A DNA stretch of 64,000 nt from positions 62,001 through 126,000 of the forward strand of contig NZ_CYRX01000025.1 in assembly GCF_001458315.1 (NCBI RefSeq), given 5' to 3'. The notes beneath the pieces were generated by a model. The model worked only from the letters and a program-made list of their open reading frames with translations, had not been told where the DNA came from and ran no database searches. This DNA is from Thalassobacter stenotrophicus (GTDB taxonomy: Bacteria; Pseudomonadota; Alphaproteobacteria; Rhodobacterales; Rhodobacteraceae). Below, in pieces: positions 3,725 to 9,381 of this stretch. The number at the start of each line of letters is the position of its first letter. Position 1 is the stretch's first letter. Position numbers and translations under genes: made by a program.

Positions 3725-4954
3725 TTACGCGGCTTTGACGTTTTCGATCTCCACCACAACCATCCCCGTCAGGTGCCACACGGCCGCCATCAAGATCCCC
3801 ATATTAAACGCAAACTCGTTGGCGCAGCTCTGCTTGAAGAAGTCCCCCTCGAGGAACATGCAGGACCCCTTGCAGAGCTGGACAACGGGGCAAGCCATGC
3901 ATTCCTCCCGAAACGAAAAGTGCGTCGAGGTGTTTAGCGCAATCGCGTCGAAGTCCTCGACGTGACCGATCTTGTGCTCGCCCTTTGCCCCGGTGTTTTG
4001 GCAAGTCATCACATTGCCGCGCAAATCGACCGCGATTGTGTCCTCCCGGTCCATCCCGCATTTCTGCCCGAGGCCATCAATGCTGCGGCGCCGTTGGATC
4101 GATTGGTAGAACTCGTCGATACGATCTCCGAGCCCAAAGGCTTGTGGGTCGTTTGCCAAGGCCTCAAACATCGATTGCGTGAGGCCTCGGAGCTGGGCTG
4201 GCTCAAACCGTCCTGTGCCGAGCGCTGTGGCCGCGTCGTAGACGTTTACAACGCCCTCAAGGCCCACAAAAGCCTCAGGGCCCACCTTGTTAGCAAACCA
4301 ATCTTGCAGCTCCTTCAGATCGTGGTGCTGCTGTGTGATCACGGCGTTAAAACCGACCATCCCCGGCCGTTCAGCTAGTAGCGCGTCGATCCAGCGGCGC
4401 TTCTCAGGTTCGTCCAAGGGATCAGGCCCGCGCAGATGCTGGCCCGGCCCGTCGTGCGAAATCGTGATGCCGATGTCGTACTTTGCGATGAAGTCGAGCT
4501 TTTCGCGGTCAAAGAGCGAGCCATTGGTGATGATGGAAAACCGGGCGTTGGGGAACCGCTCGGCTAGAGCCGGCAAAAGGCGTTTGATCTTTGCCCAGTA
4601 AACAAAAGGCTCGCCGCCCCACACCTCGATCTGCTCCGGTGCGTCCATCATCCAGCCTTCGAGCTTCGTGAGGAAGTTTTCAACGTCGCTGAGCTTTGAG
4701 ATGGTTGCATCGGAGATTTGGAAGGCTTGGTTGCAATAGCTGCAGGCGTAGTTGCACGACAGGCCAAGCTGGATTTTCAACACGCGGGGCGCCCGGGATT
4801 TGCCGAGGGGCTTGTCTCTAGCCACCTTCGGCACCGAGGGAAACTCGCCGGGATCGACAGGCAGGGGCAGCCCTTCGCATTCGGAGGTGTGCGCGTTGTA
4901 GCGGATGGAACTTCTGGCACCATCAGGCGCCTCGAGGGTCAGATCAAACCACAT
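3725..4954 (-). CDS. Radical SAM/SPASM peptide-modifying enzyme in the tail-fibre operon
   Basis: A 409-residue radical S-adenosylmethionine enzyme. The cluster motif CNYACSYC has C67, C71 and C74 (CX3CX2C). The C-terminal SPASM domain is complete: C299, then GX4C ending at C318, then C352-X2-C355-X5-C361-X3-C365, and C377, enough to bind two auxiliary iron-sulfur clusters. SPASM enzymes of known function (anaerobic sulfatase maturases, sactipeptide and ranthipeptide maturases, PqqE) modify side chains of protein or peptide substrates. It is the last gene of the late operon; its start codon overlaps the end of a putative 2OG-Fe(II) oxygenase gene, and a Cys-rich fibre-like protein lies one gene further upstream. 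That protein is the obvious candidate substrate, which is inference. The N-terminal 50 residues may be a substrate-binding region. Confidence 0.9.
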   Translation of the reverse strand: MWFDLTLEAPDGARSSIRYNAHTSECEGLPLPVDPGEFPSVPKVARDKPLGKSRAPRVLKIQLGLSCNYACSYCNQAFQISDATISKLSDVENFLTKLEGWMMDAPEQIEVWGGEPFVYWAKIKRLLPALAERFPNARFSIITNGSLFDREKLDFIAKYDIGITISHDGPGQHLRGPDPLDEPEKRRWIDALLAERPGMVGFNAVITQQHHDLKELQDWFANKVGPEAFVGLEGVVNVYDAATALGTGRFEPAQLRGLTQSMFEALANDPQAFGLGDRIDEFYQSIQRRRSIDGLGQKCGMDREDTIAVDLRGNVMTCQNTGAKGEHKIGHVEDFDAIALNTSTHFSFREECMACPVVQLCKGSCMFLEGDFFKQSCANEFAFNMGILMAAVWHLTGMVVVEIENVKAA

Positions 4955-5586
4955 CAGTCAAAAAGCCTTTCTTCGAGAGCATCTGGTAGGGTGACGCGGA
5001 AGTTCGCGACCACCTGCACATGGGGGGTGCAGCCCGCATGGGGGTGCTGGTTGTGAGGAACGTGGGAAGGAAAGAAGACCGACAGCCCAGGTCGCGGATT
5101 GACAGAGAACCCATGACGGCTCTCAAAGGGCAGCCGGGCTTCGTCAAAGTAGCGCGAGGGGTCCTCGATCACAAAGCGCGGGGTCCCAACGCTGTTGATA
5201 GGCTGGCCTGCTCCACCTCCTGTTAGGAAGTGGACACAAGTCAGATCGCCCTCCCGACTGTCTTTATGCGTGGAGATGAACCCGCCGGGGGCAATAACGA
5301 GTGCGCGGTTTTCGCAATGGTCGGGATCGAGGTATTTGGCCCAGGGACCAAGCACGGTCCGTGCACAATCAAAAAGATGGGCCTTGAGCGCTTGGCCAGC
5401 ATCACTGCGCTCCAAGATCCCGCGCACCCGCCGCTTGGAGGCAGACGGGACGTCATGAGCTTCACTCCAACCAACAGCCGCAATAGCCTCATCCGCCAGC
5501 TGTCGGTTCACCGCCCAATCCACGGGCGTCTCAAAGAAGCTAACCCGGGTAGGCCAAAGCTCGAGGCTGGTTCTGCGCACCTCCAT
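4954..5586 (-). CDS. Putative 2-oxoglutarate/Fe(II)-dependent oxygenase
   Basis: A 210-residue protein with the double-stranded beta-helix signature: HKD (H107-x-D109), a distal histidine in SHVPHNQHPH (about residues 175-183) and R197 as a possible 2-oxoglutarate ligand. Such enzymes hydroxylate proteins or small molecules, and some act on Asp/Asn or Pro. I chose ATG 5586, two bases after the stop of the Cys-rich gene; an in-frame TTG at 5601 inside that gene is possible. It overlaps the radical SAM gene at its end, so the trio is translationally coupled. The substrate is unknown; a tail protein is likely from context. Confidence 0.72.
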   Translation of the reverse strand: MEVRRTSLELWPTRVSFFETPVDWAVNRQLADEAIAAVGWSEAHDVPSASKRRVRGILERSDAGQALKAHLFDCARTVLGPWAKYLDPDHCENRALVIAPGGFISTHKDSREGDLTCVHFLTGGGAGQPINSVGTPRFVIEDPSRYFDEARLPFESRHGFSVNPRPGLSVFFPSHVPHNQHPHAGCTPHVQVVANFRVTLPDALEERLFD

Positions 5587-5588
5587 GC

Positions 5589-5873
5589 TCAGCACCGGCA
5601 ATTACAGTTGCAATTGAAGTATTTCCGAACAGTTGAAACCGTAACCGCGCCACTTGTGCCGCCTCCAGAAAGACTTTCGACGTAGCAGTTTGGAGTGCAA
5701 TTGCAGTTGCTATTATAATGTTGCGGAATTCGAACGCCTGAACCGGAGTTGCCATTACTAACGCTCACGCTTGTAATGTCACCCGCACCAATGGCTGGCT
5801 TCCCGCTGATGCGGGACCAATCGATGGTACCGCTGTCGCTGATCACGATGGTTGAGCCGACTTTATAGGCCAT
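5589..5873 (-). CDS. Cys/Asn-rich small fibre-like protein, candidate substrate of the modification enzymes
   Basis: A 94-residue protein with a strong ribosome site (AAGGAGG, 5 bases before ATG). Residues 1-30 (starting MAYKVGST, with DWSRISGKPA) resemble N-termini of phage tail-fibre proteins. The rest is Gly/Ser/Thr/Val-rich with two Asn-Cys clusters: C57, C59, C63 (NCNCTPNC) and C88, C90, C92, C94 at the extreme C-terminus. Seven cysteines in 94 residues, nearly all preceded by Asn, is unusual for a cytoplasmic or virion protein. CTPN at 59-62 resembles the sulfatase-type C-x-P-x maturation motif. It sits between two putative oxygenase genes, just ahead of the radical SAM gene. I infer that it is a virion tail protein whose cysteines are modified, cross-linked or metal-binding. 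Confidence 0.8.
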   Translation of the reverse strand: MAYKVGSTIVISDSGTIDWSRISGKPAIGAGDITSVSVSNGNSGSGVRIPQHYNSNCNCTPNCYVESLSGGGTSGAVTVSTVRKYFNCNCNCRC

Positions 5874-6603
5874 GGGGGCCTCCTTGCGTTTGATGGGCTA
5901 GGATCTCGGTGAGCCCAGCCTTGCAGTGAGAATTGGGCAGGTTGATCGAGCAAAGCACCGGAATGCACATGCGCTCTTCACCCTCGAAATACGTGCTGTC
6001 GTGGGGCACGTGGCCCTCGAAGACGATCATGGAGCCGGTGCAGGGCTCGACCGCGTACCAGCCGCCGACGTAGGCGTCGGGGTTGTTGCACGGCCAGAGG
6101 CGCTTGCCGATGTTTGCCGGATCGTAAAAACGCACTGCGCCTCGATGCAGGGACGTGTCTGGGCAGTCCGCGTCCAGCGTCACCCGGGGATAATAGGTAC
6201 AAACGATGTCGGTCTGGATATGGGTGTGGGTGTTGATCCCCACGTTTTCCTTGTCAGCCCGGCGCTGCCAAAAGGTGTCGGACATCATCGAGATATCCCC
6301 GGTGTGCGCGTATCCATAGGCGAGTTGCAGATATTCGCGCACCGCCGCCGAAACCATTTGTGCAAGAGCTGCGACTTCTGGGCCTTTACGGTCCATCAGG
6401 AAGTTGTGGCGTAGATGACCGAGGTGGTTGGTTTGATCCCCCACATTGCGCCCGTCACCGGCGTCTTGAATGCGGTTGGCCACGGCATCCTCGGCCGCCA
6501 GCCCATAGAGCCGGTCGTTGAAGCCCTCGGGCATGTCCCAATGCTTGTGCATCACAAAGGCCGGGTAAATCATCTGCAGTTCAGTGGTGGTGGCGATCTC
6601 CAT
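5863..6603 (-). CDS. Putative 2OG-Fe(II) oxygenase family protein
   Basis: A 246-residue protein from ATG 6603, which overlaps the preceding stop (TGATG). Possible iron ligands are H126/H128 and D132 in NTHTHIQTD and H198/H201 in GHVPHDS; R211 may bind 2-oxoglutarate. The layout resembles the putative 2OG-Fe(II) oxygenase family seen in marine phages (TIGR02466-like). Its last 11 bases overlap the start of the Cys-rich gene, whose ribosome site lies inside this gene. Function is unknown; context points to modification of a tail component. It is not closely similar to the oxygenase at 4954-5586. Confidence 0.68.
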   Translation of the reverse strand: MEIATTTELQMIYPAFVMHKHWDMPEGFNDRLYGLAAEDAVANRIQDAGDGRNVGDQTNHLGHLRHNFLMDRKGPEVAALAQMVSAAVREYLQLAYGYAHTGDISMMSDTFWQRRADKENVGINTHTHIQTDIVCTYYPRVTLDADCPDTSLHRGAVRFYDPANIGKRLWPCNNPDAYVGGWYAVEPCTGSMIVFEGHVPHDSTYFEGEERMCIPVLCSINLPNSHCKAGLTEILAHQTQGGPHGL

Positions 6604-7508
6604 CACACGACCTCCACAATGATCTTGCCGATGGCGGTGTAATGTTCGGTGTTCACCTTGACCGAGATCCGGTCGCCGGGGCGGAGGCCCAGAGCCTCAA
6701 TCGCAAAGCTTCCTTGCCCCTGCGCGTCGGTCGCTAAACGGCGTTTAGGCAAATACCCTGCGTCGCTGTCCAGCTTAAGTGTCAGCGCATGGGGGCAGGG
6801 CGCCCCATCCCCGTTCCACTTTAACGTAATGGGCACATCTGCTCGGCCGCCGGCGGGCACAGGCACGACCTCCGTTCCCACCGCGTGGAAGTAGAACTGC
6901 TTAAACCAGACCCCATCGTTCGGGATCGTCGCATCATCAATGCGCCCGGCGACCGAGGTTCCGTTCAGCAAGATCGGGTCTTGATCGCAGAGCAACTCGA
7001 CGCGCGCTCCGGACAATGGCCCGGCGATAGGCATAAAGATCACAAGGGCGTTTGACGCCTGTGTCCGTGCCCGGTGCCGGAAAGAATAGTCCACCTTCTC
7101 GCGCGCAGATTGGGCAAAGCGGTTGCGCCACGGCAAAGGGAAGCCGTTGTTGTCGGTCATGATATCGATCAGGGCGTAGTCGGTCAGCTCATCGTGCCCG
7201 ACCATGCCGTCGAGGAAGATGTAGGAGCGGCCCTTGTAGACCGCGCCACGGGGGCACCCGGGCAGGTCGCGCACAAAGACACCATTGCCCTCCAGATCGA
7301 CAAAGCCGGCCTTGTTAAAGCTGTCCTGCGGCTTCTCGAGGGCCTCCTTCAAGTCTTGCCAAGCAATCTCGCCGATATAGTCAGGCGCGACCTGACCCTC
7401 TTGGCATGGCTCAAAAACACAGATGCCGGCGTAGGTATCCTGAACATCCACCGCGTAATGCAGCCGCGCTGTCGTGTTGTAGATGACGTGCAAACCTGTC
7501 TCGATCAT
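6603..7508 (-). CDS. Tail-fibre operon protein of unknown function
   Basis: A 301-residue protein between the collagen-like fibre and the modification genes. Residues 1-130 are mixed; the C-terminal half has beta-rich stretches with Gly/Pro turns, as in immunoglobulin-like or carbohydrate-binding phage tail domains (e.g. [17 protein letters not shown]). There is no signal peptide or membrane segment. It overlaps the upstream gene by 4 bases (ATGA) and the downstream one by TGATG, so it is made together with them. I do not recognise a family; an adhesin or baseplate accessory is most likely. Confidence 0.7.
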
Positions 7509-8791
7509 CGGTCTTTGCCTTTCAGCTGCTCGACCTCGGCCGAGAGGTCTTTGATTGCCTCGACGAGAAGCCCTACGAGGTTGCCATATGCCAGTCGCAG
7601 CACGCCCTCTGCCTCGACGACGGCTTCAGGGGCGACGGCTTGGACGTCCTGAGCGATCAGGCCGATTTCTCGGCTTCCGCCCTCGATCATGTTGTAGGTA
7701 ACGCCTCTTAGGGCCTGCACCTTTTGGAGCGCGTCAGAGATTGGCGTGACGTTTGTCTTCAGGCGCGCGTCGGAGGACGACACGAAGTTTGGGGCCGTTA
7801 CGGTGCCGGAAAAGGTGGCACCTGAGAGCCGCGCAAATGAGCCGGCGTGCAGGCCATCTAGCTTGTCGGCATCGATGCCAGAACCAGAGCCGTCCACAGT
7901 TTTGAGCTTGTCGCGCACTTGAGCGGCTGTGTCTGGCGATCCGTTTGAACCCGCTGGCCCTTGAGGACCGACGGGGCCGGTCGCACCGGTGTTGCCCTTT
8001 GGTCCTGTGGCGCCTGTCGCCCCCTTCAGGTTTACATACCCACCCCAGGTCGATCCGGTGTAGAACCGCAGACTGGTCCCAGACCACTGATGCGCGGGTG
8101 TTGGGCCGGTTGCGCCCGTCGCGCCTTGCGGCCCGGTGGCACCGGTGTTTCCTTTCGGACCAGTGGGTCCTGTTGGACCGGCAGGGCCCTGCGGTCCTGT
8201 GGGGCCCGTTGCGCCGGTATTACCAGTGCTGCCTTTCGGACCGGTAGCACCCGTCGCGCCCTTGAGGTTTACGTAGGCTCCCCAAGTCGCCCCGTCGTAA
8301 AATCTCAGGCTTGTCCCTGACCATTGGTGATCTGGCGTCGGCCCTGTTGGTCCCGTTTGGCCTGTGTTTCCTTTATCACCTTTAGGCCCGGCCGCGCCGG
8401 CTGGCCCAACTAGGCCTTGTGGCCCGGTTGGTCCCGCTGCGCCCTGCTGTCCAGTGGCGCCCGTAATTCCCTTAGGCCCGGTTGCTCCAACTGGTCCTCG
8501 GGGGCCAATTGGGCCGTCGTCGCCCTTGGCTCCTTTGGCACCGGTGGCACCAGCGGGACCGGTAGCGCCTTGAGGGCCGGTCGGGCCTTGTGGGCCTTGC
8601 GGCCCTTGTGGGCCGGCCGATCCCGCTGGCCCTGTTTGGCCGAGTTCAATGATGCTTTCTGAGCCCGCCACTCGCTTGAGAAACAGCTTACCGTCCCGGA
8701 CGTTGACCGCGAGCTCACCTTCTCCCAATTGGGCGGTGCTGGGAACGCGCCCTGCAACCGTTGTGCGCTTAAGACTGATGGTATTTGTCAT
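7505..8791 (-). CDS. Collagen-like tail fibre with C-terminal S74 intramolecular chaperone
   Basis: A 428-residue fibre. Residues 1-50 match the start of the next fibre (MTNTISLKR... [15 protein letters not shown]). The middle, roughly 55-275, is Gly-X-Y collagen repeats interrupted twice by a near-identical block containing [11 protein letters not shown] and YVNLKGATG. The C-terminal 90 residues ([10 protein letters not shown] ... [16 protein letters not shown]) are a peptidase S74 endosialidase-type chaperone, which drives trimer folding and then cleaves itself off. It probably contacts the host surface. The repeats make this stretch prone to slippage. Confidence 0.92.
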
Positions 8792-9381
8792 CGCGCGTCC
8801 TCCTTGAACTTTTCGAATTCAGACGACAGCTCCTTAATCGCTTCGACCAAGAGCCCGACGAGGCTCCCGTAAGCGACCCGGAGCAGGTCATCGACTTCAA
8901 AGACCGCCTCGGGGGCGACGGCCTCCACATCTTGCGCGATGAGGCCCATTTGACGGCCTGCGCGGTCGTTCATCAAAAAGGTTGCGCCGGTCAAACGCTT
9001 AACCTTCTCAAGCGCGTCGGTGATCTCGGCAATGTCAGACTTCAGGCGAACATCGGACGAAGAGACAAAGTTTGGCGCCGTCACGACACCGGAAAATGTC
9101 GCCCCGGAAAGTTGAGCGAAGTCAGCTCCTTGCTTGCCATCCAAAAGGTCAGCATCGAGCCCAGAGCCCGCCCCATCGAGGCCTTTAACTCTGTTGAAGA
9201 CGTCCTGCGAAGACAACGGCGGCGGGGTCGCATCGACGATGGTCTCCGTGCCGCTGACGTTGCGCTTAAAGAACATCTTGCCGTCGTGCGTGTTGACCGC
9301 CAGCTCCCCCAGCTCGAGCTGGGACGTTGTTGGAACCTTGCCCGGCACGGCTGAGCGCCGCATTTTAATCGTGCTTGCCAT
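8788..9381 (-). CDS. Short tail fibre with S74 chaperone domain, paralogue of the collagen-like fibre
   Basis: A 197-residue protein with the same N-terminal module as its neighbour ([15 protein letters not shown]) and the same S74 chaperone ([10 protein letters not shown] ... [16 protein letters not shown]) but no collagen stretch. Shared segments include [16 protein letters not shown] and APNFVSSSD. The pair overlap by 4 bases and look like a tandem duplication in which one copy gained or lost the collagen shaft. It may be a cap or alternative fibre on the same virion. Confidence 0.88.

Follow-up and report, generated by a model that had tools for sequence, protein, structure and literature searches.

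Several radical S-adenosylmethionine (SAM) enzymes with a SPASM domain mature ribosomally synthesised and post-translationally modified peptides (RiPPs), among them CteB, PapB, the Nif11-type enzymes, ChlB, TigE and SkfB. The anaerobic sulfatase-maturating enzyme (anSME) acts on a Cys of a protein, within the sulfatase motif C-x-P/A-x-R. The locus considered here brings an enzyme of this class into a phage tail operon. It lies in a prophage within the 3.6-Mb host genome of Thalassobacter stenotrophicus, in a stretch of 64,000 nucleotides (contig NZ_CYRX01000025.1, positions 62,001 to 126,000; G000:C25:62001-126000) that was analysed as a whole and is called the window. The radical SAM/SPASM enzyme, of 409 residues, is encoded together with a Cys/Asn-rich protein of 94 residues, two proteins (A and B) resembling 2-oxoglutarate (2OG)-Fe(II) oxygenases, and a protein of 301 residues, here called X. 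With a probability of roughly three in four, these genes form a tail-protein maturation module in which the enzyme acts on the Cys array at the C-terminus of a tail protein, probably to install thioether cross-links.

The enzyme is like the RiPP maturases in its radical SAM core, its seven SPASM cysteines and its fold, and its gene likewise stands near a Cys-rich substrate candidate. The module differs from those systems in that (i) a tail-protein C-terminus takes the place of the short leader-core peptide as candidate substrate, (ii) the Cys residues alternate strictly (CxCxC), often end the protein and are encoded in phage late operons, (iii) no exporter family is recognised for 75 scanned neighbours (best 25 of 31 Pfam and best 25 of 64 PHROG families), and a Hint domain may release the C-terminus in some phages. 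A likeness of another kind is offered by the tips of the T4 gp37 type: iron is bound at HxH motifs of the long tail fibre of T4, so that ligand-type residues alternate in a tail fibre in both cases, as far as the available part of that account goes (PMC11705849). In contrast with those tips, the residue here is Cys and not His, the array is C-terminal, and an enzyme of modifying type is encoded alongside.

Radical SAM genes have been met in phages before. In pelagimyophages, radical SAM cassettes stand in the tail-fibre and host-recognition region (PMC7029224), and two Campylobacter phages encode 11–12 radical SAM proteins (PMC2853527); the accessible portions of both papers give no substrate, array or virion-maturation function for them. 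A search of the open literature, with subscription papers and preprints outside its scope, found no description of the present module, and none stands in the available parts of PMC10783043, PMC12710340, PMC11705849 and PMC9959647.

The radical SAM enzyme

The 409-residue protein matches Pfam Radical_SAM (PF04055, E 8.8e-11), phrog_1802 (E 1.8e-57) and the SPASM model TIGR04085 (32.7 bits, cut-off 27). Across an alignment of 38 diverse relatives, C67 and C71 of the SAM-cluster motif CxxxCxxC never vary, C74 is conserved to at least 90%, and the SPASM residues C299, C318, C352, C355, C361, C365 and C377 are all invariant; a sequence-only reading of this DNA had named these cysteines correctly and called them intact. 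No named maturase model reaches its cut-off among the best 25 of 56 NCBIfam families. The best are those for PapB (66.6 bits, cut-off 340) and Nif11 (57.7, cut-off 518.7), and the enzyme also misses the sulfatase_rSAM model (36.1 bits against 349.45).

The predicted model of the enzyme (predicted local distance difference test score, pLDDT, 94.8) is closest in fold to CteB (Z 23.4, root-mean-square deviation 4.2, 355 residues aligned), followed by ChlB (Z 22.1), anSMEcpe (21.0) and TigE (18.3). The sequence profile leads to these enzymes as well; its best solved relatives are 8vpo, 4k37, 4k36 and 5wgg, with 4k37 (anSMEcpe) at 5.2e-18. Going by entry titles or known function, CteB, ChlB, anSMEcpe and TigE act on peptides or proteins. 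The shared fold of the model places the enzyme by class, a level of likeness from which the chemistry cannot be read.

In 50,697 phage records, matches that span 80% or more of the enzyme are confined to the Achromobacter phages 2-1 and JWF, the latter with two records, at 39–40% identity. The radical SAM proteins of the Campylobacter phages were excluded from the family: they match the core only, at 31–33% identity, and the one locus read holds no CxCxC run. The 94-residue protein, both 2OG-like proteins and X gave no tblastn match in the same records, so annotated phage isolates are informative only through the radical SAM enzyme.

The alternating-Cys array

The 94-residue protein has seven Cys, four of them within the terminal NCNCNCRC, and matches no Pfam or PHROG family. 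Its array belongs to a recurring pattern. From 177 enzyme loci, 126 distinct array proteins were drawn (L048, whose run lies in a repetitive stretch, is included), and the last Cys lies at most 10 residues from the C-terminus in 106 of them, being the C-terminal residue itself in 62. The 529 interleaved residues are mostly Asn (281), Ala (97), Asp (66) or Arg (32), and the residue preceding the first Cys is Asn, Ala or Asp in 120/126. Since one of these three residues nearly always precedes a Cys and nothing is needed after the last one, the pattern suggests that each array Cys pairs with a preceding residue.

In 29 C-termini of close relatives of the window protein the Asn ahead of each of the first two Cys is invariant with varying codons, and residues 9–40 from the end are 24–90% conserved. 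These C-termini were selected for the run and an RC ending, so that the conservation of Cys is partly by construction, whereas the invariance of Asn and the variation of its codons are not. The terminal motif is more than chance: across 80 genome loci, a C-terminal C(xC)2+ run ends just 1 of 1033 greedily called open reading frames (ORFs) outside the 5-kb upstream sense interval.

Association of enzyme and array

Two sets of loci were gathered from the enzyme. A search of viral contigs for the enzyme of the window yielded 71 loci, 56 of them eligible (full enzyme, at least 2.5 kb upstream). The rule shaped on these loci asks for a same-strand ORF at most 5 kb upstream in which a C(xC)2+ run falls within 30 residues of the C-terminus or enters a Hint motif; 51/56 loci pass it, and 3/56 in the antisense control. 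The five failures consist of three Hint types outside the strict pattern (L061, L062, L065) together with L075 and L077 (array 5.4 kb away). A separate set was taken from bacterial genome contigs (best 80 of 186 relatives), of which 15 were excluded for an enzyme ORF below 370 residues or less than 2.5 kb upstream. The rule is passed by 53 of the remaining 65 loci, with 4/65 in antisense (p 1.5e-19; all p-values given here assume that loci are independent), and same-strand downstream controls give 1/52 at 0–5 kb and 0/31 further away. Clustered at 75% identity, 30/38 genome-locus clusters carry the motif.

Taken together, the 177 loci fall into 77 enzyme clusters, 63 of them with the motif (64 before L048 was removed for the tree), and the motif label takes nine changes on the enzyme tree. 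The pooled set includes repeat fetches of one place (151 distinct enzymes) and loci fetched through the motif, so 63/77 is not an unbiased rate and 53/65 is nearer to one.

The association also holds in the opposite direction. Viral contigs were scanned, blind to the enzyme, for DNA encoding NCNCNC and then NCNCAC, with at least 120 stretches in each scan; the final site rules date from after inspection of the first scan, when the content of the second had yet to be seen. Among the matches listed, to which all counts from these scans refer, C-terminal coding loci that extend 2.5 kb or more downstream have the enzyme in 11/11 cases for NCNCAC and 13/15 for NCNCNC, compared with 5/51 and 6/64 at other sites, where the motif falls outside any ORF or in one taken to be spurious (p about 9e-9 for each scan). 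The eleven other sites with the enzyme are mostly apparent true array proteins masked by a longer ORF. Without the 2.5-kb condition the counts are 17/26 and 18/27; internal coding sites with flank are also mostly enzyme-linked (15/18 and 2/3), and the first scan, counted earlier by a looser rule, gave 21/28 coding-like sites against 4/102 others. L135 and L371 are common to both sets, and two more, L340 and L357, nearly duplicate loci first reached through the enzyme. The sequence-only reading had tied a dedicated radical SAM enzyme to a Cys/Asn-rich tail protein, a tie that homologues of the Cys protein standing mostly without the enzyme would have broken; the homologues found at the 11/11 and 13/15 loci mostly stand with it, and co-occurrence in both directions across very different phages supports the tie strongly.

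Several observations weigh against an array-modifying role for the enzyme or soften the counts above. The rule behind 53/65 was fixed when these loci had already been viewed under a looser criterion, and three of the 11 NCNCAC loci are at places already met (L135, L340, L357), with L374 and L377 near copies. The motif is missing at 12/65 genome loci. A supported motif-free clade of the enzyme is mostly from Comamonadaceae (L227, L228, L229-231, L242), with Ramlibacter and Variovorax, and L230, the locus of this clade that was read, sits among non-phage genes; the enzyme of this clade may act on a different substrate or survive as a relic, and is possibly a host-adopted version. Further motif-free loci are L222, L244, L277, L290, L292 and L293, and a looser Cys-density rule applied to 13 motif-free genome loci found a candidate in L293 only, downstream and by reading. 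Conversely, the flanked NCNCNC loci that lack the enzyme are L182, which has an array fibre and an X-like protein with no radical SAM gene within 3.9 kb downstream, and L187, which carries the motif. The array proteins otherwise vary widely, which leaves their recognition by one enzyme family unexplained, and the 94-residue protein of the window lacks a tail-family match of its own.

Tail-family matches of the array proteins

The long array proteins resemble tail proteins. All ten that were picked for their length (326–726 residues) match PHROG tail families at E <= 1e-3, with the matched region mostly in the body that precedes the array, and a T7 tail-fibre N-terminal domain is present in 2/35 array proteins. 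The proposal that the Cys protein of the window is itself a tail protein finds family matches in its long array relatives and none in the 94-residue protein, whose putative tail role is drawn from its operon position and from these relatives.

The array does not always end the encoded protein. In phages JWF and 2-1, a fibre-type protein encoded two genes upstream of the enzyme carries NCNCDCNCNCSC or NCNCDCNCSC directly abutting a Hint domain; in JWF, Pfam Hom_end_hint (3e-12) starts at residue 308, the edge of the array. These two loci pair the enzyme and the Cys pattern in phages with otherwise different-looking fibres. A C-terminal part of 156–214 residues with a Hint-like opening, judged by eye, follows the array in 16/126 proteins, and Hom_end_hint is matched by 5/35 array proteins scanned. 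Among the internal coding sites of the motif scans there is also a third build, in which the array is followed by a C-terminal part of ∼165–190 residues, starting like SKIICAKLYE in three that were read. L169, L300, L325 and similar loci are of this kind, with ∼165–170 residues after the array, no Hint domain and the radical SAM gene mostly present.

Locus layout and partner proteins

The prophage around the module encodes J-type tail genes, a tape measure protein, a major head protein, a portal and a terminase. Its late operon ends, in order, with two Peptidase_S74 fibres, X, oxygenase-like protein A, the 94-residue protein, oxygenase-like protein B and the radical SAM enzyme (Table 1). By the start codons of the ORF tool, the enzyme gene overlaps that of the 215-residue protein by 1 base, which overlaps the 94-residue gene by 13, which in turn overlaps the 247-residue gene by 11. 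The ORF reading bears out the coordinates and coupling of the four minus-strand genes (3725–6606) on which the sequence-only reading was built; that reading overlooked the adjacent gene for X, which is more widely kept (54/77 enzyme clusters) than the oxygenase-like genes (29/77).

Table 1. The module and its immediate context, with positions in the window.
Feature	Position	Strand	Basis
Radical SAM/SPASM enzyme (phrog_1802), proposed maturase, 409 residues	3725..4954	-	Pfam, PHROG, conserved Cys, fold
2OG-Fe(II) oxygenase-like protein B, HKD...H, accessory, 215 residues	4954..5601	-	Pfam/PHROG, alignment, profile against solved structures
Cys/Asn-rich protein, proposed substrate, 94 residues	5589..5873	-	Translation; host-genome copies
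Alternating-Cys array NCNCNCRC, final eight codons of the 94-residue gene	5592..5615	-	Translation and relatives
Internal Cys cluster NCNCTPNC, residues 56-63 of the 94-residue protein	5685..5708	-	Translation; partly conserved
2OG-Fe(II) oxygenase-like protein A, HxH...H variant, accessory, 247 residues	5863..6606	-	Pfam/PHROG, alignment, profile against solved structures
Protein X, conserved partner of array protein and radical SAM enzyme, 301 residues	6603..7508	-	Profile search, model
Context gene: collagen-like tail fibre bearing a Peptidase_S74 chaperone domain	7505..8791	-	Pfam, PHROG
Context gene: short tail fibre bearing a Peptidase_S74 chaperone domain	8788..9381	-	Pfam, PHROG

The host genome holds the 94-residue gene, the 301-residue gene and the full-length radical SAM gene three times each, together with one truncated radical SAM copy of the same family at a contig end (G000:C31:594946-595404; L011, L014). 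Elsewhere, multiple radical SAM ORFs can lie near array proteins: four in L125, and two each in L110, L066 and L176.

A profile iterated from X has members in 28/40 enzyme clusters, and in its final form reaches the 54/77 given above. In the predicted model of X (pLDDT 81) an immunoglobulin-like domain forms the C-terminal part, and no solved structure is clearly related to the N-terminal part. The sequence of X finds nothing convincing among solved structures and its fold just loose immunoglobulin-like matches; its seven best matches among the predicted viral structures of BFVD comprise six phage proteins that are uncharacterised and a nameless one.

The two oxygenase-like proteins match PF13759 below the Pfam cut-off of 27 bits (A, 1.3e-4 and 22.7 bits; B, 0.053 and 14.4 bits) and phrog_81 at 6.8e-9 and 1.1e-4, respectively. 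An alignment of 19 relatives contains two invariant His, and its profile matches the solved structures 3bvc (1.9e-9) and 2rg4 (3.8e-7). Two positions past the first invariant His stands His in 12 sequences, Asp in five, Glu in one and Asn in one; protein B reads HKD there and protein A HTH. The invariant His and the 3bvc/2rg4 matches are shared with the putative 2OG oxygenases of TIGR02466/PF13759 (phrog_81), from which the present proteins differ in lying below the curated cut-offs, in the HxH of protein A and in their tie to a radical SAM tail module. Taken singly, each of the two proteins has a weak 2OG assignment. In the window's own enzyme cluster, exactly two 2OG-like genes occur in 44/45 loci (31 distinct enzyme sequences). 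Of the four-gene combination first proposed, the link of the enzyme to the Cys protein is strongly supported, and the oxygenases are accessory, being nearly fixed in the window's cluster and present in 29/77 overall. Hydroxylation of array Asn specific to the 2OG-like proteins finds no support, as the Asn share of the array is unrelated to their presence (0.53 with and 0.57 without, p = 0.54).

Other genes occur beside the array in individual phages. In L077 a fatty-acid-desaturase gene (L077:3371-4123; PF00487, 1.7e-15) lies near the array fibre and X. L182, which lacks the radical SAM gene, encodes a 267-residue protein (L182:1443-2246) with His clusters similar by eye to those of the desaturase and no Pfam match. 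On viral contigs, a gene for DctP, a solute-binding protein of the tripartite ATP-independent periplasmic (TRAP) transporter type (PF03480, ∼315 residues, E down to 2.5e-43), stands one to two genes downstream of the radical SAM gene (L072:8593-9537, L126:5746-6693, L174:5837-6778; likely also L213 and L104).

A proposed route to a modified tail tip

In the proposed module, an alternating (N/A/D)-C-(N/A/D)-C array closes the 94-residue protein, as it does the tail-fibre-fused counterparts of other phages, and the phrog_1802 enzyme would bind this end. Using SAM and its iron-sulfur clusters, the enzyme would abstract hydrogen from the interleaved Asn, Ala or Asp, and the sulfurs of the adjacent Cys would then close thioether bonds, so that the product would be a tail protein with a cross-linked C-terminal tip, which may act in adsorption or entry. 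X would be a dedicated partner, perhaps capping or presenting the array, and the two 2OG-like enzymes may add lineage-specific tailoring. Where a Hint domain follows the array, as in some other phages, its predicted removal would make the array a free C-terminus again; a stop codon and a Hint domain could thus be two routes to the same end. A wider proposal, for and against which the odds are about level, is that tailed phages of a widespread class staple a tail protein at its distal C-terminus with a dedicated radical SAM/SPASM enzyme, each Cys being joined to a preceding residue, and that the result is a covalent tip, perhaps able to bind metal, on which adsorption or entry through the envelope depends.

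Among the alternatives, the one that survives best is an array that stays unmodified. The alternating Cys would point inwards in a trimeric tip locked by metal or disulfides, binding Fe, Zn or a cluster, and the radical SAM enzyme would act elsewhere or aid assembly. By alternating, the Cys would all come to lie on the same side of a strand, phage fibres offer a precedent in their HxH iron sites (PMC11705849, in the part available), and the enzyme-free L182, with its array and X-like protein, is what such a tip would allow. It is nonetheless unlikely, because it leaves unexplained both the presence of a SPASM enzyme of peptide-modifying type at 13/15 and 11/11 flanked C-terminal loci, among the matches listed, and the dominance of Asn, Ala and Asp between the Cys.

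The resemblance to anSME bears on another possibility, that the enzyme turns array Cys into formylglycine, whose aldehydes might react with the host surface. The fold and profile place anSMEcpe among the closest relatives (Z 21.0; 4k37, 5.2e-18), and one JWF record names its radical SAM enzyme an anaerobic sulfatase-maturating enzyme. CteB, titled as thioether-forming, is at least as close (Z 23.4), however, and the array pattern differs from the sulfatase motif, which makes this chemistry quite improbable.

That the 94-residue protein is cargo rather than part of the virion, a secreted RiPP precursor (bacteriocin or signal) at the end of the tail operon, would agree with its small size, its lack of a tail-family match and the resemblance of the enzyme to RiPP maturases. 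Elsewhere, however, the same array ends tail-fibre-family proteins of up to 726 residues (10/10 of those chosen for length), and no exporter is found within the scope stated above; cargo is therefore very unlikely. The slightest chance goes to hydroxylation of the adjacent collagen-like fibre by the 2OG-like enzymes with the radical SAM part separate: 2OG enzymes include the prolyl and lysyl hydroxylases of collagen, and the fibre (Pfam Collagen, 2.4e-28) is encoded two genes upstream of oxygenase-like protein A, yet among 64 array-bearing clusters a collagen-like ORF is no more associated with 2OG-like genes (4/25) than with their absence (6/39), even if it occurs in 31/45 loci of the window's own cluster.

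Significance

The maturation module can be tested in isolated phages, the Achromobacter phages JWF and 2-1, as well as in prophages like that of the window. If the enzyme does modify the array, phrog_1802, so far named just a radical SAM domain-containing protein, would gain a role, and its substrate would be predictable from sequence through the alternating-Cys C-terminus. The family would then be one of protein-stapling enzymes with targets at protein C-termini. Radical SAM peptide chemistry would reach beyond natural products and enzyme maturation to the virus particle: a viral structural protein would be matured by radical chemistry of the RiPP type, and phages would gain a chemically modified tail end.

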